A stretch of DNA of 64,000 nucleotides. Origin: Liolophura sinensis (taxonomy: Eukaryota > Mollusca > Polyplacophora > Chitonida > Chitonidae). How positions within the stretch are numbered: the stretch's first letter is position 1; each line of letters opens with the position of its first letter. The stretch spans positions 30,573,732 to 30,637,731 of the forward strand of contig NC_088304.1 of NCBI RefSeq assembly GCF_032854445.1, read 5' to 3'. The position numbers and the translations under genes are program-made. The notes under the pieces were generated by a model. The model was not told the DNA's origin and did no database searches. It worked only from the letters and a program-made list of their open reading frames with translations. Shown piece after piece: positions 16,950 to 43,300 of the stretch.

Positions 16950-17410
16950 GTAGTTCCATTTTGTTTTGGAGAAGGCACTGTAATGGTTGTCTGTACAAAT
17001 ACGTTGTTATACATTACCAATAACTACAGTAGGCCTCCGCAAATGTTTTGTTGTCTTTTACCATTGAACACAGAACTTTATCCAACCAGAACACGGTGTC
17101 TTCACGGTTGTACTTTACCAATGACTGCAGTAAGCCTTTACGAACGTTTTGTTGTACTCTTAAAGTGACTGCAGTAGGCCTTTACAAATGTTTTGTTTTA
17201 CTTTACCATTGCCTACATAAGGCCTTTGCAAATCTTTTGTAGTACCGTACTTTACCAATATCTGCAGTAGGGCTTTACAAATGTTTTGTTGTACTTTACC
17301 AATGTCTGCAGTAGGCCTTTCCACATATTTTGTTGTACTTTACGAATGACTACAGTAGGCCTTTTCAAATGTTTGGTTGCACTTTAACAAAGACTACAGT
17401 AGGCCTATGC
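16950..17410. repeat. Minisatellite in the 5' flank of copy C
   Basis: About 10 units of roughly 44 bp, TTTTGTTGTACTTTACCAAT then GACTGCAGTAGGCCTTTACAAATG. This is the array homologous to those upstream of copies A and B. Confidence 0.88.
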
Positions 17411-19314: not shown

Positions 19315-22300
19315 CTGAAAATGAGGGGAAATTAATACTTCTCATTTGATTTTTTCCTTCCAATTATTATCATTTCTTTTTATTATTATTTCAGTTTTTT
19401 ACTGAAAAACCTCAGAGGTAATTTCTGCACCTCGCCAGGTACTGCCAAAACTTCTTGGCCTAAACCTCCACACCCCGCCAGGTAACTAACAATCCTCGTT
19501 ACGTAAACAGCCAGAACTTGCCAAGTCCTGACAAACCTTCAACATCCCTTTATTGCGCCTGAAGACACTTGCATGCAGTCCATTCTACGAAGCAGTCGCA
19601 AACTGCGTCTTGACAAAACATTGTGAAGAGATACGTGGTAAATACGCTTGAGGCAAAGTGACGACAGCTTTGTAGACCGGAACCAAGGCTCATATATATC
19701 AAACGGACTTATAAGTTGAAAATTCAAACACAGCGCCAATTAAAATGTTTTGCTCTGGGAAATTTGTACACTGATTCTTTACTGTAGAACAACGTACTGA
19801 CCACATTTTGAGCTTTTTCCTGTTTAAATTTTGGCTTTTTAAGCATTTGAAATTGATGACTTAAGTCTTAATTTTTTGGATTTAGCATGGGGCACACACT
19901 AACCTGAGCTGTGGATCTACCACCGTGGTCGCATCCCTCGCACGACCCATGCGGCAGGATCCCGAGGGGTGATACATCATGAACGTTAAGCTTCGGACAA
20001 ACTCCTCCCAGTATTCGTCCGTGAACGGTGTCTTTGAATATCCAGGTAGAATTCGGGACGTAAAACGAGCTCCTATTTCCTTCATAGGTTTCGTTTTTGC
20101 GAGCTTCAGCAGGGCTTTAATACCTGTGAATAAAAGATCTAATATCAAGCACTGCAGCTTTTTTTGTAGAACATTAACAAAAATAGTTCTTATTTATGTG
20201 TACTAAGGCTGTCAGTCTCATGACACAGGCGATTACTGATAATAAATGAAAACCTTTGTGTATCTCACGAATATATAAAGAAAGAAGAGAATAAAACCAG
20301 AGCAGCGACGTCAGTGGGATAGACGTACGGCATAAAGAGTAAAACCAGAACAGCGACGACAGTGTGATAGACGTACAGCATAGAGAGTAAAACCAAACCA
20401 ACGACGACAGTGTGAAAGACGTACAGGATAGAGAGTAAAACCAGAGCAGTGATGACAGTTTGATAGACGTACAGCATAGAGAGTAAAATCAGAGCACAGA
20501 TGGCAGTGCGATAGACGTACAGCTCAGGTAGTAAAACCAGATCAGCGATCACACTGTGATAGACATACAGCACAGAGTAAAATCAGAGCAGCGACGACAG
20601 CGTGGCAGACGTACAGCAGAGAGGAAAACCAGAGTAGCGACGACAGTGTGATATAGTTGGCAATTGACCACACACATGTATTAGCCATCAAATCCAGCCT
20701 ATTGTCAGCTTTACGTCAGTCAAGGTTTTATTCCGACTGTTCGTGTATATGCATACAAAGTAACAACGCAGACGCCCCTTATTAACATCATTTAAGCAGA
20801 ATTACTTTTTTTAAATGTGCTATGTTGCCTGCAATTTATTACACGTCAGTGGTCTAGAATTACTCAAAATGATGTGTTGTTATCACATTTAATATAAAGA
20901 GAGAGATTGAGAATGTGAAATTGTGTTTCACCTGCCACAAGGGTTTTGACATCGTCAGGGTGGGACAAGGCCTTATGGTCGATGAGGGGGTGGGAGTTGG
21001 GATCACTGTCCCTTAGTCGGATTGTGCCCCGGCTCTTTGGGTGCGTAGCGTACATGGAAACGCTGAATCCATGTTTACCGCGATTCCCACCGAAAATGGC
21101 TTCCCAGACCTGTATAAACAACAGTACATGTCAACGTGGAAGTTGAGCACACATAAGCAAAGAAGTTGATGTCATTTTTCGCAACTTAGGTTTCAGAAAT
21201 GTAGACGTTAGCATGGAAACCTTTGCTTTGTTAGATTCTCATCGAATATAACTTACCAGACCTGTATAAATAATAAAAAAGCTAAGATTGAAATTGACTT
21301 TTCACAACTATATCTTATTAAACCCTCTGAGTAAGGCTTCCCCAATCGATATATACATAAGCAAAGATGTCAGCGTCATTCTTCGCAGATTAGCTTTCAG
21401 AAATTTAGATCTGTACACTTGCTGTCACAAACCTGAAACTCGGTCTTTCGAATGTGCTATCCTCAACATGTCAAAGCTGTACGCTATAGAAATACGTTTC
21501 CTTTAACTCTACAGTAATTCTGACCTCATATCACCTAGTTACTTGTGAATAATAAAGGCCATCACGTAACATTTAACACAAATGCTCTCTTGCGCATCAA
21601 CAACAAGCCAAATTTCGCAAATTGCACTCAACATTGTTCGGCAAAAATACGTTTGGACTGAAGCCAACAGGAATGCATTATTATATGGGTGAATGACAAT
21701 TTCTTTGAGTGTCCTAACATTATCTGTTGTCTTTATAATGAACACAAGGTACTTTTATCGGCTATTATGAGAAAAGGACTGTCTTGATTTTGAGAAGACC
21801 AGCCGCGTCCGCCTTAGTGAAGCAGTCATCGAAAATGGCAGATTCACGAAGATCATTTAGTCTGAACTTACATACACTTTACCAGCTATCTGATTATCTT
21901 ACCTCATCTTGCAGCTCTCTCAGTCTGAACTTACACACACTTTACCAGCTATCTGATTATCTTACCTCATCTTGCAGCTCTCTCAGTCTGAACTTACACA
22001 CACTTTACCAGCTATCTGATTATCTTACCTCATCTTGCAGCTCTCTCAGTCTGAACTTACATACACTTTACCAGCTATCTGATTATCTTACCTCATCTTG
22101 CAGCTCTCTCAGACTGAACTTACACACACTTTACCGGCCATCTGATTATCTTACCTCATCTTGCAGCTCTCTCAGTCTGAACTTACATACACTTTACCAG
22201 CTATCTGATTATCTTACCGCATCTTGCAGCTCTCTCAGTCTGAACTTACATACACTTTACCAGCTATCTAATTATCTTACCTCATCTTGCAGCTCTCTCA

Positions 22301-25300
22301 GACTGAACTTACACACACTTTACCGGCTATCTGATTATCTTACCGCATCTTGCAGCTCTCTCAGTCTGAACTTACACACACATTACCAGCTATCTGATTA
22401 TCTTACCTCGTCTTGCAGTTCTCTCAGTCTGAACTTACACACACTTTACCAGCTATCTGATTATCTTACCTTATTTTGCAGCGCTCTCGATCTGATATCA
22501 CACACACTTTACAAGTTACCTTTTTGTGTTACCCCTTTTTCAACTTACTTAGTCTGAAAAAAACACATACTTTACCAGCTATTCGATTATCTGACCTCAT
22601 CTTTGAGCTCAGTTAGTCTGAAATCAAACACACTTAAGCATCTATCTGATTGTCTTTCCTTTTTTCATCTCACTTACACTGAACACACACTTTACCAGTT
22701 AACTAATTGTCTTATCTCATATTTCAGCTCACTTAATCTGAGACCACACACACTTTACCAGTTAACGGAATGTCTTATCCCATCTTTGGACTCACTTAGT
22801 CTGAAATAACACACACTTAATCAGCCATCTGATTGTCTAACCTCATCGTTTAACCCACTTAGTCTGAAATAACACACACTTAATCAGCCATCTGCTTGTC
22901 TAACCTCATTGTTTAACTCACTTAGTCTGAAATCACACACTCCACCAGTTACCTGATCGTTTTACCTCATCTTTTAGCTAACTTATTTTTGAACACACAC
23001 ACACTTTACCATTTTCCTGATTGTCTTACCTCATATTTGAGCTCACTTAGTCTAAAATCACACACACTTTACCATTTTCCTGATTGTCTTACCTCATATT
23101 TGAGCTCACTTAGTCTAAATTCACACACACTTTACCATTTTCCTGATTGTCTTACCTCATATTTGAGCTCAGATAGTCTAAAATCACACACAGTTTACCA
23201 TTTTCCTGATTGTCTTACCTCATATTTGAGCTCACTTAGTTTGAAATCACACACTTTACCAGTACCTGATTGTCTTACCTCATCTTTCATTTCAGTCATG
23301 TCTTTTAATCTGGGCACATCTCCAGACCCATGTAATGAGCAAAAATTTGAAAAATTAATATCTGGATTCGGATTGCCTGGGCTTTGAACCTCCGTTCTTA
23401 TCAATCCCACCGCATCGAGCGTTTGTGTAGCACGAGGACCTACATAAATTGCAAATATTCTTGTTAGCATAACTTGGACGATGACTCAATGGTTTTAAGA
23501 ACTAAATCATTCTAGTAATCCATGAACCTAATAAGCTAAGGTAAGCAAGTTCTGAAATAAACAATCAGTAAAATTTAATAGACATTATGGTTCAGACATG
23601 TTGACATTCATGTACTGTCTGAATTGTAATGTGGTTTAGGCGTAGTACCATTATCGTACTGTCTGAATTCTAATGCTGTTCAGGCGTATTACGATTATCG
23701 TATTGTCTGAATTCTAATGTGGTTCAGGCGCAGTACGATTATCGTACTGTCTGAATTCTAATGTGGTTTAGCCGCAGTACAATTATCGTATTGTCTGTAT
23801 TCTAATGTCATTCAGGCGCAGTGCAATTATCGTATTTTCTGAATTCTAAGGTGGTTCAGGCGCAGTACAATTATCGTATTGTCTGTATTCTAATGTCATT
23901 CAGGCGCAGTACAATTATCGTATTGTCTGTATTCTAATGTCATTCAGGCGCAGTACCATTATCGTATTGTCTGTATTCTAATGTCGTTCAGGCGCAGTAC
24001 CATTATCGTATTGTCTGTATTCTAATGTCGTTCAGGCGCAGTGCCATTATAGTGTTGTCTGAATTCTAATGTGGTTTAGACGCAGTACCATTATCGTATT
24101 GTCCAAATTCTAATGTGGTTCAGGCGCAGTACGATTATCGTACTGTCTGATATCTAATGTGGTTTAGCCGCAGTACCATTATCGTATTGTCTGAATTCTA
24201 ATGTGGTTTAGGCGCAGTACGATTATCGTACTGTCTGATATCTAATGTGGTTTAGCCGCAGTACCATTATCGTATTGTCTGAATTCTAATGTGGTTCATG
24301 CGCAGTACGATTATCGTACTGTCTGATATCTAATGTAGTTCAGGCGCAGTATCATTATCGTACTGTACGAATTCTAAGGTGGTTCAGGCGCAGTACCACT
24401 ATCGAATTGTCTAAATTCTTGATCACAGCGTCAATTCATTGGCAAAAATATTGCACATTCATAACACTGAAGTAACAGGGCTAAGACTCAAGCTTGACAA
24501 CCCTCAATCCCTTTCGTAATGTTAACACTACACCGCAGGGTGACGTCCGCCTGGCAGTAATCTGCAGATGGTCGTGGATTTATCCCAGGCTGTGTCCGAT
24601 TTCCTGGCCTTCGTCGTGTAAGTGATTGCAAGGGGTATTCTTGAGTACGGCCTTCGTCAAATAAGTAGAAAATTCTGGAGCAAAACGCTTAACACCAAGT
24701 ATTATAATGCGAGTATTTTGGTCTGCATTTTGATTATTGTATTCCTATTCAGCTCTTCGGTAAAACTGTAGGATCACGTTTGAAAAATTTTAGGAATCTT
24801 ATCAAACGGAGGCGAAATTATGTCACTTCGTGAATCGTCCACCTATGCACACGCTACACGCACCTGCTCGTAGCTTTTCGTATCGGTCCATTGTGTCCTG
24901 CGATTCGACATCCTGGGGTAAAGCCGAGTAAGGTTTATCTATCTCAAACTCCAACCCCACCACTCCTACATGGTCTTGGAAATTTTCACCCACGGGGAGG
25001 TCGGCGACCAAGTCAATCTATATGAGCATTAATGATAAATGAGCACTACTTATAATATCGGGACCAGAAGATCCAGGATCAATCCTTGATCGAGTCACAC
25101 CTAAGACTTTAAAAGAGGAAGTTGTAACTTCCTCGCTTGGCGTTCAGCATGAAGGCGATAGTGCAACGACTGGTTGACCCGTATCAGTATAATGGCTCGG
25201 GCGGGGCGGCTTACTTGCCTTCGGTAAGTCGTCTCAGTAAAGCAACACTAAATAAAAGAGCGGTGGAAATCCGTCCTGCAACAAGGAGGCACATTACACG

Positions 25301-31749: not shown

Positions 31750-32215
31750 TGTACAACACTATTACCAGTGATTGCAGCAGCCACATATAGATTATTTGTT
31801 GTAATTTACCGGTGATTGCAGTAGGCCTATACAAATATTTTGTTGCATCTTACCAGTGATTGCAGTAGGCACATACACATGACTTGTTGTATTTTACCAG
31901 TGATTGCAGTAGGCACATATAGATTATTTGTTGTACTTTACCGGTGATTGCAGTAGGCCTATACAAATATTTTGTTGCATTTTACCAGTGATTGCAGCAA
32001 GCACATACACATGATTTGTTGTATTTTACCAGTGATTGCAGTAGGCACATACAGATTATTTGTTTACTTTACCGGTGATTACAGTAGGCCTATACAAATA
32101 TTTTGTTGTATTTTACCAGTGATTGCAGTAGGCACATACACATGATTTGTTGTATTTTACCAGTGATTGCAGTAGGCACATACACATGATTTGTTGTATT
32201 TTACCATACCATACA
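31750..32215. repeat. Minisatellite in the 5' flank of copy A
   Basis: About 10 units of roughly 44-46 bp, of type TTGTATTTTACCAGTGATTG plus CAGTAGGCACATACA. They alternate with a GCCTATACAAATATTTTGTTGCA variant. Homologous to the arrays at 16.95-17.41 kb, 47.88-48.53 kb and, inverted, 52.22-52.81 kb. Confidence 0.88.
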
Positions 32216-34360: not shown

Positions 34361-37300
34361 CTGAAATTGAGGGGAAATTAATACATCTCATTTGATATTT
34401 TCCTTCCAATTATTATCATTTCTTTTTATTATTATTTCATTTTTTACTGAAAAACCTCAGAGGTAATTTTCTGCACCTCGCCAGGTCCTGGCAAAGCTTC
34501 TTGACGAAAACCTCCACACCTCGCCAGGTAATTAACAATCCTCCTGACGTAAACAGCCACACCTCACCAAGTACTGACAGACCTCAGAGGCATTTTTCAG
34601 CACCTCGCCAGGTGCTGGCAAAGCTTCCTGACGAAAACCTCCACACCTCACCAAGTACAGGCAAAACTTCCTGACGAAAACCTCCACACCTCGCCAGGTA
34701 ACTAACAATGCTCGTAACGTAAATATCAATACCTCACCAAGTACTGACAAACCTTCAACTTCCCTTTATTGCGCCTGAAGACACCTACTTGGGATCCGTC
34801 CTACGAAGCAGTCGCAAACTGCGTCTTGACAAAACATTGTGAAGAGATACGTGGTAAATACGCTCGGGGCAAAGTGACGACAGCTTTGTAGACCGGAACC
34901 AAGGCTCATATATATCAAACGTCTTAGGACTTATAAGTTGAAAATTCAAACACAGCGCCAATTAAAATGTTTTGCTCTGGGAAGTTTAAACTTTGTACAC
35001 TGATTCTTTACTGCACAACAACGTGCTAACCACATTTTGAGCTTTTTCCTGTTTAAATTTTGGCCTTTTAAGCATTTGAAATTGATGACTTAAGTCTTAA
35101 TTTTTTGGATTTAGCATGGGGCACACACTAACCTGAGCTGTGGATCTACCACCGTGGTCGCATCCCTCGCCCGACCCATGCGACAAGACCCCGAAGGGTG
35201 GTACGTCATGAACGTTAAACTTCGGACAAACTCCTCCCAGTATTCGTCCGTGAACGGTGTCTTTGTATATCCAGGTAAAATTCGGGACGTAAAACGAGCT
35301 CCTATTTCCTTCATAGGTTTCGTTTGTACGAGTTTCAGCAAGATTTTAATACCTGTGAATAAAGATCTAATATCAAGCGTTGTAACCTTGTGTAGAAGAT
35401 TAACAAAAGTACTTCTTATTTATAAGAGCTAAAGTTGTTAGTCTTATGATACAGGCGAATACTGGCAGTAAATAAAAACCTTTGTGTATCTCACGAATAT
35501 ATTAAAACAGCAGAGAGTAAAACCAAAGCAGCGACGACAGTGTGATATAGTTGGCAATTGACCACACACATGTATTAGCCATCAAATCCAGCCTATTGTC
35601 AGCGACACTTCAGTCAAGGTTTCATTCCGGCAGTTCGTGTATATGCATAAAAAGTAACAACACAGACGCCTCTTAGTAACATCATTTAAGCAGAATTACT
35701 TTTTTCTAAATGTGCTATGTTGCTTGCAATTTATTACACGTCTATGGTCTAGAATTACTCAAAATGATGAGTTGTCATCATATCTAATATTAAGAGAGAG
35801 ACTGAAAATGTGAAATTGTGTTTCACCTGCCACAAGGGTTTTGACATCATCAGGGTGGGACAAGGCCTTATGGTCGATGAGTGGGTGGGAGTTGGGATCA
35901 CTGTCCCTTAGTCGGATTGTGCCCCGGCTCTTTGGGTGCGTAGCGTACATGAAAACGGTGAATCCATGCTTACCGCGATTCCCACCGAAAATGGCTTCCC
36001 AGACCTGTATAAACAACAGTACATGTCAACGTGGAAGTTGAGCACACATAAGTTGATGTCATTTTTCGCAACTTAGGTTTCAGAAATGTAGACGTTAGCA
36101 TGGAAACCTTTGCTTTGTTAGATTCTCATCGAATATAACTTACCAGGCCTGTATAAATAATAAAAAAAAGCTAACATGGACGTTGACTTTTCACAAATAT
36201 ATCTTATTAAACCCTCTGAGTAAGGCTTCTCCAATCATTCTTCGCAGATTAGCTTTCAGAAATTTAAATCTGTACACTTGCTGTCACAAACCTGAAACTC
36301 GGTCTTTCGAGTGTGCTATCCTCAACATGTCAAAGCTGTACGCTATAGAAATACGTTTCCTTTAACTCTACAGTAATTCTGACTTCATGTCACCTAGTTA
36401 CTTGTGAATAATAAAGGCCATAACGTAACATTCAACATAAATGCTCTCTTGCGCATCAACAACAAGCCAAATTTCGCAAATTAGGTATACGGTTTTAGAT
36501 ACAAGTATGTCACACTCAACATTGTCCGGTAATAGAATGTTTGGATTTGAGTGTCTTAACATAAAGGTTGTCACAAGGAAGTTATATTACCTATTATTAA
36601 AAAAGGACTATCTTGATTTTGAGAAGAGCATCCGCGTCCGCCTCAGTGAAGGAGTCATCGAAAATGGCAGTTTTGCGAATTTCATTTTATCCTTTAGTTT
36701 GAAATCACACACACTTTACCAGTTATCTGATTAACTTACCGCATCTTTGAGCTCATATAGTCTAAAATCACACACTCCTTACTAGTTATCTGATTATCTT
36801 ACCGCATCTTTGAGCTCAAATAGTCTAAAATCACACACTCCTTACGAGTTATCTGATTATCTTACCACATCTTTGAGCTCAGATGGTCTAAAATCACACA
36901 CTCCTTACTAGTTATCTGATTATCTTACCGCATCTTTGAGCTCAGATAGTCTAAAATCACACACTCCTTACGAGTTATCTGATTAATTTACCGCATCTTT
37001 GAGCTCAGATAGTCTAAAATCACACACTCCTTACTAAATATCTGATTAATTTACCGCATCTTTGAGCTCAGATAGTCTAAAATCACACACTCCTTACTAG
37101 TTATCTGATTATCTTACCGCATCTTTGAGCTCAGATAGTCTAAAATCACACACTCCTTACTTAATATCTGATTAATTTACCGCATCTTTGAGCTCAGATA
37201 GTCTAAAATCACACACTCCTTACTAGTTACCTGATTATCTTACCGCATATTTGAGCTCAGATAGTCTAAAATAATACACACTTTACTACCTACATGACTG

Positions 37301-40300
37301 TCTCATCTCATATTTCAGCGTACTTAATCTGAAACCACACACTTTACCAGCTATCTGATTTTCTTGTCTCATCTTTTAGCAAACTCATTCTGAAATGACG
37401 CACAACTCATTAGTTTTCCAATTATCTTACCTCACTTTTTAGTTCAGTTAGTCTTAAACCACACACACTTAAAAACTTATCCGATTGTCTTACCTCATCT
37501 TTCAGCTCACTTAGTCTGAAATGACACAAACTTTACCACTTATCCGATTGTCTTACCTCATCTCCCAGCTCACTTAGCCTGAAATGACACAAACTTTACC
37601 ATTTATCCGATTGTTTTACATCATCTCTCAGCTCACTTAGTCTGAAATGACACAAACTTTACCATTTATCCGATTATCTTACCTCATCTCTCAGCTCACT
37701 TAGTCTGAAATGACACAAACTTTACCATTTATCCGATTATCTTACCTCATCTCTCAGCTCACTTAGTCTGAAATGACACAAACTTAACCATTTATCCGAT
37801 TGTCTTACCTCATCTCCCAGCTCACTTAGTCTGAAATGACACAAACTTCACCATTTATCCGATTGTCTTACATCATCTCTCAGTTCACTTAGTCTGACAT
37901 GACACAAACTTCACCATTTATCCGATTGTCTTACCTCATCTCTCAGCTCACATAGTCTGAAATGACACAAAACTTTACCATTTATCCGATTGTCTTATCT
38001 CATCTTTCAGCTCACTTAGTCTGAAATGACACAAACTTTACCATTTATCCGATTGTCTTACATCATCTCTCAGTTCACTTAGTCTGACATGACACAAAAC
38101 TTTACCATTTATCCGATTGTCTTACCTCATCTCTCAGCTCACATAGTCTGAAATGACACAAACTTTACCACTTATCCGATTGCCTTACCTCATCTCTCAG
38201 CTCACTTAGTCTGAAATGACACAAAACTTTAGCATTTTTCCGATTATCTTACCTCATCTCTCAGCTCACTTAGTCTGAAATGACACAAAACTTTACCACT
38301 TATCCGATTATCTTATCTCATCTTTGAGCTCACTTAGTTTGAAATGACACAAACTTTACCACTTATCCGATTGTCTTACCTCATCTCCCAGCTCACTTAG
38401 TCTGAAATGACACAAACTTTACCACTTATCCGATTGTCTTATCTCATCTCCCAGCTCACTTAGTCTGAAATGACACGAAACTTTACCACTTATCCGATTA
38501 TCTTACCTCATCTCTCAGCTCACTTAATCTGAAATGACACAAACTTTACCATTTATCCGATTGTCTTACCTCATCTCCCAGCTCACTTAGTCTGAAATGA
38601 CACAAAACTTTACCATTTATCCGATTGTCTTACCTCATCTCCCAGCTCACTTAGTCTGAAATGACACAAATTTTACCACTTATCCGATTGCCTTACCTCA
38701 TCTCCCAGCTCACTTAGTCTGAAATGACACAAACTTTACCATTTATCCGATTGTCTTATCTCATCTTTGAGCTCACTTAGTCTGAAATGACACAAACTTT
38801 ACCACTTATCCGATTATCTTACCTCATCTTTCAGCTCACTTAGTCTGAAATGACACAAACTTTACCATTTATCCGATTGTCTTACCTCATCTTTGAGCTC
38901 ACTTAGTCTGAAATGACACAAACTTTACCACTTATCCGATTGCCTTACCTCATCTTTCAGCTCAGTTAGTCTGAAATGACACAAACTTTACCACTTATCC
39001 GATTATCTGACCTCATCTTTGAGCTCAGTCTGAAATCAGGCACGCTTTACCAGTTATCTGATTGTTTTATTTTCTCATATTTCAGCTCACTTAATCTGAG
39101 ACCACACATACTTTACCAGTTACGTCATTATTATACCTCATCTTTCAGCTAAGTTTATTTGAAATCACACAGACTTTACCAGTTACTTGATTGTCTTACT
39201 TCATCTTTTAGCTAACTTATTCGGAAATCGTATACACTTTACCACGTATACGATTGTCACACCTCATCTTTCAGCTCACTTAGTCTGAAATCACACGGAC
39301 ATGACCAGTTATCAGATTCTTTTACTTCATCTTTCAGCTAACTTACCATTTTCCTAATTGTCTTACCTCATCTTTCAACTCATTTAGTCTAAAATCACAC
39401 ACACTTTACCATTTTCCTAATTGTCTTACCTCATCTTTCAACTCATTTAGTCTAAAATCACACACACTTTACCATCTTCCTAATTGTCTTACCTCATCTT
39501 TCAACTCATTTAGTCTAAAATCACACACACTTTACCCGCTATCTGATTGTACTACCACATATTTCAACTCACTTAGTGTGAAATAACACACTTTACCAGT
39601 TACCTGATCGTCTTACCTCATCTTTCATTTCAGTCATGTTTTTTAAGCTAGGCACATCTCCAGCCCCTTGTAATAAGCAAAAATTTGTAAAATTAATGTC
39701 TGGATTCGGATTGCCTGGGCTTTGAGCCTCCGTTCTTATCAATCCCACCGCATCGAGCGTATTTGTAGCACGAGGACCTACATAAAATGCAAATATTTTT
39801 GTTAGCATAAATTGGACAATGACTCAGTGGTTTTAAGAACTAAAGCATTCTTGCAATCCCTGAACCTAATAAGCTAAGGTAAAAAAGTTCTGAAATAAAC
39901 AATCAGTAAAATTTAATAGGCATTATGGTTCAGATATAATGACATTCATGTACTGTCTGAATTGTAATGTGGTTTAGGCGTAGTACCATTATTGTACTGT
40001 CTGAATTCTGATATGGTTCAGGCGCAGTACCATTATCGTGTTGTCTCAGTTCTAATGTGGTTCAGGCGTAGTACCATTATCGTATTGTCTGAATTATAAT
40101 GTCGTTCAGGTGCAGTACAATTATCGTATTGTCTGAGTTCTAATGTCGTTCAGGCGCAGTACCATTATCGTATTGTCTCAAATCTAATGTCGTTCAGGCG
40201 CAGTGCCATTATCGTATTATCTGAATTCTAAGGTGGTTCAGGCGCAGTACCATTACCGTTTTGTCTGAATTCTAAGGTGCTTCTGGCACATTACCATTAT

Positions 40301-43300
40301 GATATTGTCTGAATTCTAATGTAGCTCAGGCGCAGTACCATTATCGTATTGTCTGAATTCTAAGGCGTTTCGTGCGCAGTACCATTATCGCATTTTCTGA
40401 ATTCTAAGACGGGTCAGGCGCAAAACCATTATCGTATTGAATGAATTCTAATGTGGTTCAAGCACAGTACGATTATCATATTGTCTGAATTCTAATGTCG
40501 TTCAGGCCCAAGACTGTTATCGCACTGTCTGAATTCTAAGGTGGTTCACCAAGTATTATAATGCGAGTATTTGTGTTTGCATTTTGATTAAAGTATCTCT
40601 ATTCAGCTCTTCGGTAAAACGGTAAGATCGCGTTTGAAAAATTTTAGGAATCTTATCAAACGGAGGCGAAATTATGTCAGTTTGTCAATCGTCCACCAGG
40701 GGCCTCCGTGGCTCAGTCGGTTAGCGCGCTAGCGCAGCGTAATGACCCAGGAGTCTCTCACCAATGCGGTCGCTGTGAGTTCAAGTCCAGTTCATGCCGG
40801 CTTCCTCTCCGGCCGTACGTGGGAAGGTCTGCCAGCAACCTGCGGATGGTCGTGGGTTTCCCCCGGGCTGTGCCCGGTTTCCACCCACCATAATGCTGAC
40901 CGCCGTCGTATAAGTGAAATATTCTTGAGTACGGCGTAAAACACCAATCAAATAAAATAAATAAATCAATCGTCCACCTATGCACACGCTACACGCACCT
41001 GCTCGTAGCTTTTCGTATCGGTCCATTGTGTCCTGCGATTCGACATCCTGGGGTAAAGCCGAGTAAGGTTTATCTATCTCAAACTCCAACCCCACCACTC
41101 CTACATGGTCTTGGAAATTTTCACCCACGGGGAGGTCGGCGACCACGTCAATCTATATGAGTATTAATGATATACGAGCACTAATTATAATAAACATTGC
41201 CCCTTATTAAAATGTGTGAAAATGTCCCTTTGGTCACATTATGCTGACACCGGGCCAAATGATTTTGTACCGGTTAATATAGATTTTAAAATAAATTAGC
41301 CACATTAATTATGAGTGAGTATACTGGCCAGTAGGTTGAGAAATACATGTATTTAGATACGCTATACTTTGGCTGCTTAACGTCTCGTCAGATATCCTGG
41401 CGTTCGCGTTAGGTGTTACGACATAGATTTTACCAGTTACAGAGGTACGGGTGCTTACTCAGGCTGTATGATCTTCACTACAATAGCAAACGGGTGACTT
41501 GAGGACGAGCAGCCATGATTGTGACGTATCCAAATATTCCTCAACCTACTTGTGTTCAGACTGTTTTGTTCAAGTCCCACCGTGAGCTTGTTAAGGTTCC
41601 ATAATAATTTATTTCACCGTGACATCGATACAAAATCTAGAAGCATACCAGCTAAGGTCGAAAACCGATCAAAAATGACATATAAAGATCTTATATCTAG
41701 AAAATGAATACATTTGGGGAAGAGGGATATACAGAGGCTAAACAATCAATGCGCTTGTGAAGGACATTACTACCTTGGTAAGAATAAGCGGTCGACGGCA
41801 CTCTTGTTGCCATTTGCTACATGTGTATGTCTGGCGTTCGTTGACTTCTCTTTCATCAGAAAAAGATTATCAGTAGCTCGCTCAACGTCGCCGGTTTATC
41901 TCGGGCTCCTTCACGCACACAACTGACCGCAATCGCATTTATTGTGAGCGAAATATTCTTGACCCTCAGAACGTCATTAAGCAGCAATCAGGTAAATAAA
42001 TATCATTTCTTCCAGAAGGGTCAGCGTCGCATTTTATCGGTGAGATTTATTTATTTGATTGGTGTTTTACATCGTTCTCAATAATATTTCGACGTATGGC
42101 CGGAGAGGAAGCCAGCATGAGTTGGACTTGAACTCACAGAGACCGTATTGGGCGGCTCCCGGGCCATTGCCCAGAGCTGGCGTGCTAACCCCTTCGGCCA
42201 CGGAGGCCCTCTCATCGGTTTTACGTGTGACCATTTTCCAGTTATCTTCGCTGCACTGGTTTTGCTCTGTACCTTGGCTTCTTTTATGTATATGTAAAGC
42301 ATACTAAGAGAAGAGATGTTAACGGTGACGTACCCCTAAGGATCTAAGATGGTCGGCCGGCCCGATCCCTGACAGCATGAGGATCTGAGCGGAGCCCACC
42401 ACCCCACCACACAGCAGGATCTCCTGACGTGCCCTCACCGTGTACGTCTGTCTGCTGGAGGTACGGACGTACTCCACGGCGCGAGCGATCCTGTTGTCTG
42501 TGATAACCTTCAACAGAAATCGACATGAACTCATCGTCTGTGGACATTCGTGTATGCCGTAGGAACATGTTCGATTCAAGTCAGAACAATATGGATAATT
42601 CAGATCGACTGATTTGATTTATTTATTTACCATACTGGTATTTTACGAAGTATTCAAGAATCCTGTACTTTTACGACAGCGACCAGCATTATGGCGGGAG
42701 AAAACTGGGCGGAGCCTGGGGAAAGCCACGCCTATCCACAGATTGTTGCTCTATGTACATGGCGTTACAGCAAGACTCTAACCGTTTGAATACATAGTCA
42801 TGATATTTCTTATTCCAGAATTGAAATCCATGAAGAGCTACCTTGGTCACGTGGCAGTGTGTAACCACGTGGAGGTTGTCTCTCCCTAAGGCCGATCTGA
42901 GATAGACTTTGCTGGAGCTCTGTCTGACGCCGTCTCCAATGTTAGACTGCACCACCATGAAGCCTGCATGTAACAGATACCAGCAAATGTTGTGTACATA
43001 AATACTAGCCATACTTTGCATAATTATCGACTGTCTAATATTTTTTCTTCTTATCGACTACAAGTTTCTAAAATGAACTGTATGGAAGCTGACATCAGTA
43101 GCTGATTGACTTGGTGTATTTATAAATGTGTTTTCCAAGCTGCTTTTTCAGAAAGAGAGAGAAGAAATTTTAAAACAATTAAAGCTCTCCATATAAGATA
43201 AATGTTACACAACAGAGCATTAATCTGGTTATCTCCCTAAACCTAAATCGTCGTTCACAAAAGCTTCAGACACAGCAAGTTCTCGACTGAAGATTTCTTT

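Follow-up and report, generated by a model that had tools for sequence, protein, structure and literature searches.

Tandem arrays of an exon/intron junction in two GMC-oxidoreductase genes of the chiton Liolophura sinensis

Introduction

How does an intron come to hold dozens of copies of its own splice donor, and what becomes of a gene that carries them? The question is raised by two tandem GMC-oxidoreductase genes, copies A and B, on the minus strand of a 64,000-nucleotide stretch (C10:30573732-30637731, hereafter the window) of the 609-Mb Liolophura sinensis assembly. According to excerpts of the genome report, this chiton was published as Liolophura japonica (PMC11068029); a correction renames the species L. 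sinensis (PMC12441733). Intron 8 of both genes contains a 63-bp minisatellite whose unit spans the boundary between exon 8 and intron 8. We consider it likely that this array was copied from that junction in the ancestor of A and B and has since been a near-neutral passenger, with the donor adjacent to exon 8 remaining the one mainly used.

A tandem array of the exon 8 boundary in both gene copies

Both genes score above the cut-off for GMC_oxred_N (PF00732) and GMC_oxred_C (PF05199), which identifies them as GMC oxidoreductases, and their relatives in the PDB are choline oxidase and alcohol oxidase. The reading frames of exons 8 and 9 are open in both copies, and exon 8 ends in phase 0 with MTEMKDE/V, the slash here and below marking the boundary. 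The features of the locus are as follows.

39617..39777, minus strand: exon 8 of copy B, limits from TAG/GT and GAG/GTAAG; the final 16-22 nt form the exonic portion of the repeat unit
39616 (G of GT), minus strand: true donor of exon 8, copy B, GAG/GTAAGACG; U1 duplex -9.6 kcal/mol
36005..39616, minus strand: intron 8 of copy B
35827..36004, minus strand: exon 9 of copy B (GMC_oxred_C)
36694..39639, minus strand: 63-bp junction minisatellite of copy B, 47 units; unit 1 is the true exon 8/intron 8 junction (39578-39639)
23279..23439, minus strand: exon 8 of copy A
20932..21109, minus strand: exon 9 of copy A
21850..23300, minus strand: 63-bp junction minisatellite of copy A, 23 units; unit 1 is the true junction (23241-23300)

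Tandem Repeats Finder (TRF) delimits the 63-bp array as 36694-39345 plus 39343-39627 in copy B and as 21853-23286 in copy A. Units were counted by wrap-around alignment to the 63-bp consensus, omitting end fragments of 1, 5 and 12 nt, and this alignment places the true exon 8 junction in register as the first unit of both arrays. Both methods agree with the initial annotation, made from the letters of the window, which had described an exon-end-like piece and a donor in the 63-bp units of both copies. With tandem repetition, a boundary-spanning unit and the authentic boundary among the units, the structure is, judged by its sequence, a mirage, that is, a tandem array of an exon/intron boundary.

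The two arrays share part of their internal order. Units A1 and B1 (the boundary units, 92% alike), A6 and B8, and A10 and B10 are reciprocal best matches in conserved order, while A4 matches B13 and B4 equally well. The largest blocks of units are copy-specific, and the unit numbers differ (47 in B versus 23 in A). The shared ordered units suggest that the array may be older than the gene duplication.

Origin of the repeat unit

The initial annotation had proposed the end of exon 8 as the founder of the array. The last 22 nt of the exon agree with the unit consensus in 16 places, 14 of them within the last 16 positions, whereas no other GT-anchored 22-mer in the window (7,556 were compared) agrees in more than 13. 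Aligned to the unit, the exon 8 boundary of copy B scores 91, a value reached by 0 of 200 shuffles (maximum 29). The similarity stops at the exon piece: only 5-6 of the 35 nt upstream match the unit. A resemblance arisen by chance or convergence, with an ordinary intronic minisatellite carrying GAGGTAAG lying beside exon 8, might be entertained in a window so rich in minisatellites (50 TRF rows), where the consensuses of seven other arrays resemble no exon of copy B (their scores are attained by 79-148 of 200 shuffles). The similarity of the exon 8 unit is well above these controls, however, and unit 1 is in register in both copies, so that we regard this explanation as refuted and its probability as negligible.

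The opposite direction, in which an older array supplied the end of exon 8, would fit the continuity of the exon-adjacent unit with the rest of the array. Against it stand the paralogues at other chromosomal places, which lack an array in intron 8 and keep both the exon end and its phase. In ten paralogues (L001-L010), exon 8 can be followed to a GT in the corresponding position, in six through an alignment that includes the last residue and in four by eye; five of the ten retain a GM like that of ITGMKDE. L001, the nearest, agrees with the unit at 15 of 22 positions. Neither in its stretch nor in those of L002 and L003, the next nearest, did TRF detect an array, and all three have the intron that separates exons 8 and 9. 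The unit itself was found nowhere else: a 191-base query of three units gave 30 matches in the genome, all in introns 8 of A and B, within the limits of the search for repeats. (An exact genome search with a coding-like 17-mer also gave no match, which is uninformative because the units differ from the 17-mer.) Since array-less paralogues keep the exon end and the unit was found only in these two introns, the data support an ancestral exon edge from which the array is derived, as the initial annotation had it, and make the opposite direction highly improbable.

Splice signals and the cost of decoy use

Most units retain the signals of the junction. With the true junction included, GT is intact in 40 of 47 units in copy B and 20 of 23 in copy A, and GTAAG is present in 31 and 15; among the decoy units, the true junction excluded, the corresponding figures are 39 of 46 and 19 of 22 for GT, and 30 and 14 for GTAAG. 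The initial count of about 46 (B) or 23 (A) near-perfect sites was thus somewhat high. An AG lies directly ahead of the 22-nt exon-like piece in 41 of 47 units (B) and 20 of 23 (A), and a second GT follows about 20 nt further on in 43 of 47 and 20 of 23. Both AG and GT are present in 35 of 47 and 17 of 23 units, and the AG..GT pieces so delimited are 22 nt long in 34 of 35 and 16 of 17 cases. Pairing with U1 at least as strong as that of the true donor is predicted for 21 decoys in B and 11 in A. Because eight other donors of these genes span -6.1 to -11.1 kcal/mol, the decoys rank as ordinary good donors.

Splicing from these sites would nearly always damage the message. In copy B, extending exon 8 to any of the 39 decoy donors brings an early stop, and none of these extensions stays open. 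In copy A, 18 of the 19 extensions run into a stop, and the first decoy is the sole open one:

23219..23278, minus strand: 60-nt stretch from the true donor to the first decoy donor (23218), copy A only; open in frame, would add 20 codons

The mini-exons between AG and GT contain a stop in 34 of 35 cases (B) and 14 of 17 (A), and all 17 of copy A meet a stop either inside themselves or within 60 nt of exon 9. The earlier expectation that decoy use should be harmful is therefore well supported by the predicted products. With a stop after almost every decoy, mis-splicing would be poison nearly every time, and decay could hide the mis-spliced RNA. The exon-adjacent donor is probably the one used, because it alone keeps the conserved protein, although the first decoy of copy A also keeps the frame.

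Junction arrays in other genes

Structures of the same kind recur at other junctions. We examined 13 ten-kb stretches around GMC paralogues, in which 107 exons were mapped with limits estimated from alignments. The following junction arrays were recognized by eye.

L019, exon 7: 85 bp, 13 copies
L020, exon 9: 89 bp, 8 copies
L017, exon 10: about 45 bp, 6 copies; probe score only 27
L028, exon 7: 29 bp (22 exonic), 16 copies; score 83, tested apart
L026, exon 7: 17 bp, 2 copies; score 14, missed by the probe
L024, acceptor of exon 7: 63 bp, 12 copies

The probes comprised 25 exonic and 25 intronic nt and were compared with the adjacent intron; for the GMC genes, 60 shuffles were made per probe, and introns with an unmapped neighbouring exon, below 70 nt or above 6,000 nt were excluded. 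Among 218 GMC junction probes from 15 genes (A and B included), nine scored at least 34 on the same strand and one on the opposite strand, with a shuffle maximum of 33. Of the nine hits, those at exon 8 of A and B represent one event, those in L018 and at exon 10 of L028 are weak, and two trace to one degenerate copy of the acceptor junction of exon 9:

36124..36160, minus strand: degenerate exon 9 acceptor junction copy within intron 8 of copy B, TTATTTATACAG/GCCTGGTAAG; local score 34
21236-21273, minus strand: its equivalent in copy A; local score 41

Junction arrays thus occur in the GMC genes at five kinds of junction, namely the donors of exons 7, 8, 9 and 10 and the acceptor of exon 7. 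We did not count as mirages L028 exon 10 (intronic part only), the L018 exon 8 acceptor (one diverged copy) or L024 exon 5 (short). Donor-like arrays that cannot be traced to an exon edge lie in introns 9 (L028:7288-8208) and 8 (L028:6248-6672) of the GMC paralogue on C1 and are possibly old, drifted mirages; for the 27-bp and 43-bp arrays of L013/L028, which carry donor-like motifs, no exon edge was traced. At L027:3-678, a 17-bp array holds about 40 copies of TCAG/GTACACAATGAGA and closely resembles the array, two copies long, at exon 7 of the related L026. It was not counted, as it lies beyond the mapped exons, exon 7 of L027 being outside the stretch.

Outside the GMC family, we probed 7 of 11 listed CCT/chaperonin places and 3 of many P450 places. 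These ten loci were picked for exon matches within 10 kb after the tables, open-frame lengths included, had been seen, and the choice was not blind. Six of their 89 probes score 116-200, followed by 47 and 36, against at most 29 on the opposite strand and at most 35 in shuffles. Clear donor junctions account for four of these six hits, one each in L029 and L037 and two in L034, so that two CCT loci and one P450 carry junction arrays besides the GMC genes; in L037, 42 units match and GT is in place in 34. The probe test gave no junction array at the other 7 of 10 loci, whose exon maps are incomplete, and long arrays lie between mapped exons in L033 and L035. Left out of the count were an L034 array at the 3' end of the model match, the L037 5' hit (score 36), and L032 (score 47), which has the appearance of a short interspersed element (SINE). 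Also left out were 41-bp acceptor-like units (TTTATGTACAG) at L034:8953-9495, which run up to the start of a CCT exon and include only about 5 exonic nt each.

Are junctions preferred birthplaces of minisatellites? By TRF spans, 4 of 18 arrays in the 13 GMC paralogue genes cross a junction, versus 1.89 expected at random (P 0.11); in L017 and L019, TRF leaves out the boundary unit, which has diverged. When arrays are classed by homology, a classification made after seeing them, 6 of 18 are junction arrays versus the same expectation (P 0.007). Dropping the L026 array, which has two copies, gives 5 of 17 (P 0.029); restricting the set to arrays of at least 2.2 copies gives 5 of 12 (P 0.008), and to those of three or more, 5 of 10 (P 0.002). 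Because the classification was post hoc and exon limits were estimated from alignments, these figures are only suggestive of a junction preference in the GMC paralogues.

The repeated splice signals show little sign of selection in either direction. When the 68 decoy units of both copies are taken together, mean conservation in the GT and AG columns is 0.94 (P 0.11; P 0.15 with 27 dereplicated units), and these columns are neither distinctly conserved nor depleted. Across nine junction arrays, omitting the second L034 donor array, conservation lies 0.025 above the unit mean for the donor 9-mer (P 0.046) and 0.045 above it for GT (P 0.058). GT is intact in 73-100% of units, the lowest value being that of L037, whose GT columns stand at the 5th percentile of conservation. 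We read this as donor copies that are near-neutral, at most weakly conserved and not purged.

Other repeats and genes

A separate 44-bp minisatellite occupies intron 7 of both gene copies (23612-24419 and 39950-40548) and matches no exon edge of copy B. Related 44-bp arrays (TTACCAGTGATTGCAGTAGGC...), one of them inverted, lie at 17107-17406, 31762-32206, 47897-48531 and 52262-52811 and look as if spread by duplication or a mobile element. Upstream of copy B, at 51218-52037, a 44-bp array carries two donor-like motifs per unit on its minus strand (GGTAAGGGTAAGG). Rfam gave no match in the window. A dispersed element at 40700-40970 and other places, which we take to be a molluscan tRNA-derived SINE, has several partial copies in the window and one in the paralogue L002. 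At 60360-62537, minus strand, a single open frame of 726 aa matches DUF7042, DUF7043 and DUF7044. Elsewhere in the assembly, contig C99 holds seven COX1 matches about 15.5 kb apart, indicating tandem mitochondrial genomes, an assembly artefact or a nuclear copy. On the mitochondrial contig, where Pfam identified COX1 and the remaining genes were assigned by eye from their translations, one strand reads COX3-ND3-ND2-COX1-COX2-ATP6 and the other ND5-ND4-ND4L-CYTB-ND6-ND1; this is the ancestral order of molluscs and shows that the animal is no lancelet.

Discussion

The history that best accounts for these observations would begin with a tandem duplication, in the ancestor of A and B, of about 16-22 nt of exon and about 41-47 nt of intron at the exon 8 junction. 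The array would then have grown into the intron by slippage or unequal exchange, independently in each copy after the gene duplication, while the true junction kept its place at the head of the array, where it probably still serves as the donor. Exon 8 would be joined mainly from this exon-adjacent site, leaving the copies as near-neutral passengers; use of a downstream copy would mostly lead to a stop codon and loss by decay. The copies may thus be tolerated either because the first donor is mainly used or because mis-spliced RNA decays. Similar arrays arose at exon edges of several other genes of this chiton.

Some points weigh against this history. Decoys that match or beat the true donor in U1 pairing leave the choice of the true donor unexplained, and its use is deduced from the conservation of the protein. 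The slight excess conservation of donor copies over the nine arrays (P about 0.05) leaves room for a weak function. Moreover, such copies need not always be silent: in the human IFI6 gene, 12-nt units resembling the donor consensus, derived from near the end of exon 2, are said to include downstream units that serve as donors.

The alternative that these points favour is that the ladder is used, its copies binding U1 or pairing with acceptors, so that downstream donors or poison mini-exons tune the gene or the removal of intron 8 is held back. The material for this exists, in the 35 (B) and 17 (A) mini-exons, nearly all poison, with many strong donors, and the better conservation of the donor 9-mers points the same way. 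Precedents would be the decoy exons reported in OGT intron detention (PMC12017769) and the human minisatellite just mentioned, which, by the title of a 1995 paper, provides multiple splice donor sites in a transcript. Yet the splice columns of A and B lack significant conservation, the GT columns of L037 are conserved less than nearly all others in its unit, A and B diverge strongly in copy number and unit type, and the same structure stands at unrelated junctions of unrelated genes. Exons of 22 nt spaced about 41 nt apart are, in addition, very small for exon or intron definition. We therefore consider a used ladder unlikely. The initial annotation had allowed for regulatory use of decoys; signs that they are kept for regulation or selected against are not borne out, given copies that are not purged, at most weakly conserved and paralleled by equivalent arrays at the junctions of other genes, and also because amphioxus arrays are reported, in the excerpts we consulted, not to disturb regular splicing (PMC3087553).

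The structure is of a known kind. Excerpts of two studies describe amphioxus mirages as boundary-spanning minisatellites in Adh3 and the globins BflGb6 and BflGb9 (PMC3087553) and in TnC and PGBD5 (PMC3902484), at donors and acceptors, unstable in length and carrying cryptic AG/GT signals. Reverse-transcription PCR suggested undisturbed regular splicing of the genes, and the globin authors propose mirages as a source of new introns (PMC3087553, excerpts). The chiton arrays share with them, as far as those excerpts go, the minisatellite-like boundary-spanning repeats, the presence of AG/GT in many but not all units, and a distinct boundary unit, as seen in the likeness of A1 and B1. They differ in the mollusc host, in having up to 47 units, compared with 6 and 3 in two BflGb6 haplotypes, and in occurring in two gene copies, at several junctions and in three gene families of one genome.

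Other systems are further removed. The IFI6 minisatellite likewise has donor-like units beginning at an exon end, but its unit is much shorter, it is not known to have a full junction unit and its alternative donors are reportedly used. Intron gain by tandem genomic duplication is also said to copy splice signals (PMC4974935, PMC3443670); here, intron 8 already existed, as the paralogues show, and no new intron is seen. In the detained intron of OGT, decoy exons are reportedly cryptic splice sites that, like the chiton copies, could compete with the true ones. The chiton sites, however, are tandem copies of the true junction and give no evidence of being conserved for regulation.

A word search of the open-licence literature found no boundary array in other animal groups, although earlier reports may exist. 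Excerpts of papers on earthworm metallothionein, chicken MUC2, a prawn lectin and hTERT describe no exon-boundary array, and those of a chiton genome paper (PMC12005716) make no mention of tandem repeats or minisatellites. As far as we have seen, what is new is the mollusc lineage, the length of the arrays and their frequency in the sampled genes.

Boundary minisatellites have so far been known mainly from amphioxus, as far as the excerpts of that literature extend, with one reported human relative. Their presence in a mollusc, in three unrelated gene families and at five kinds of GMC junction, suggests a general route of splice-site multiplication. It also offers a natural test of how the spliceosome chooses a single donor when dozens are equally good. 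RNA sequencing of the sequenced animal exists for five tissues, namely digestive gland, foot, gill, gonad and heart, according to excerpts of the genome report (PMC11068029), so that a first test is possible without new sequencing. Gene predictors and repeat maskers need care with junction arrays. More broadly, and as a tentative extension that we hold to be possible but rather less than evenly balanced, exon/intron junctions may be preferred birthplaces of minisatellites in this chiton, many ordinary genes may carry ladders of splice sites equal in strength to the true one, and donors may be chosen by position, the first being taken, rather than by strength. If so, the genome would offer a natural experiment in how donors are chosen, along with a standing stock of spare splice signals for new exons and introns.

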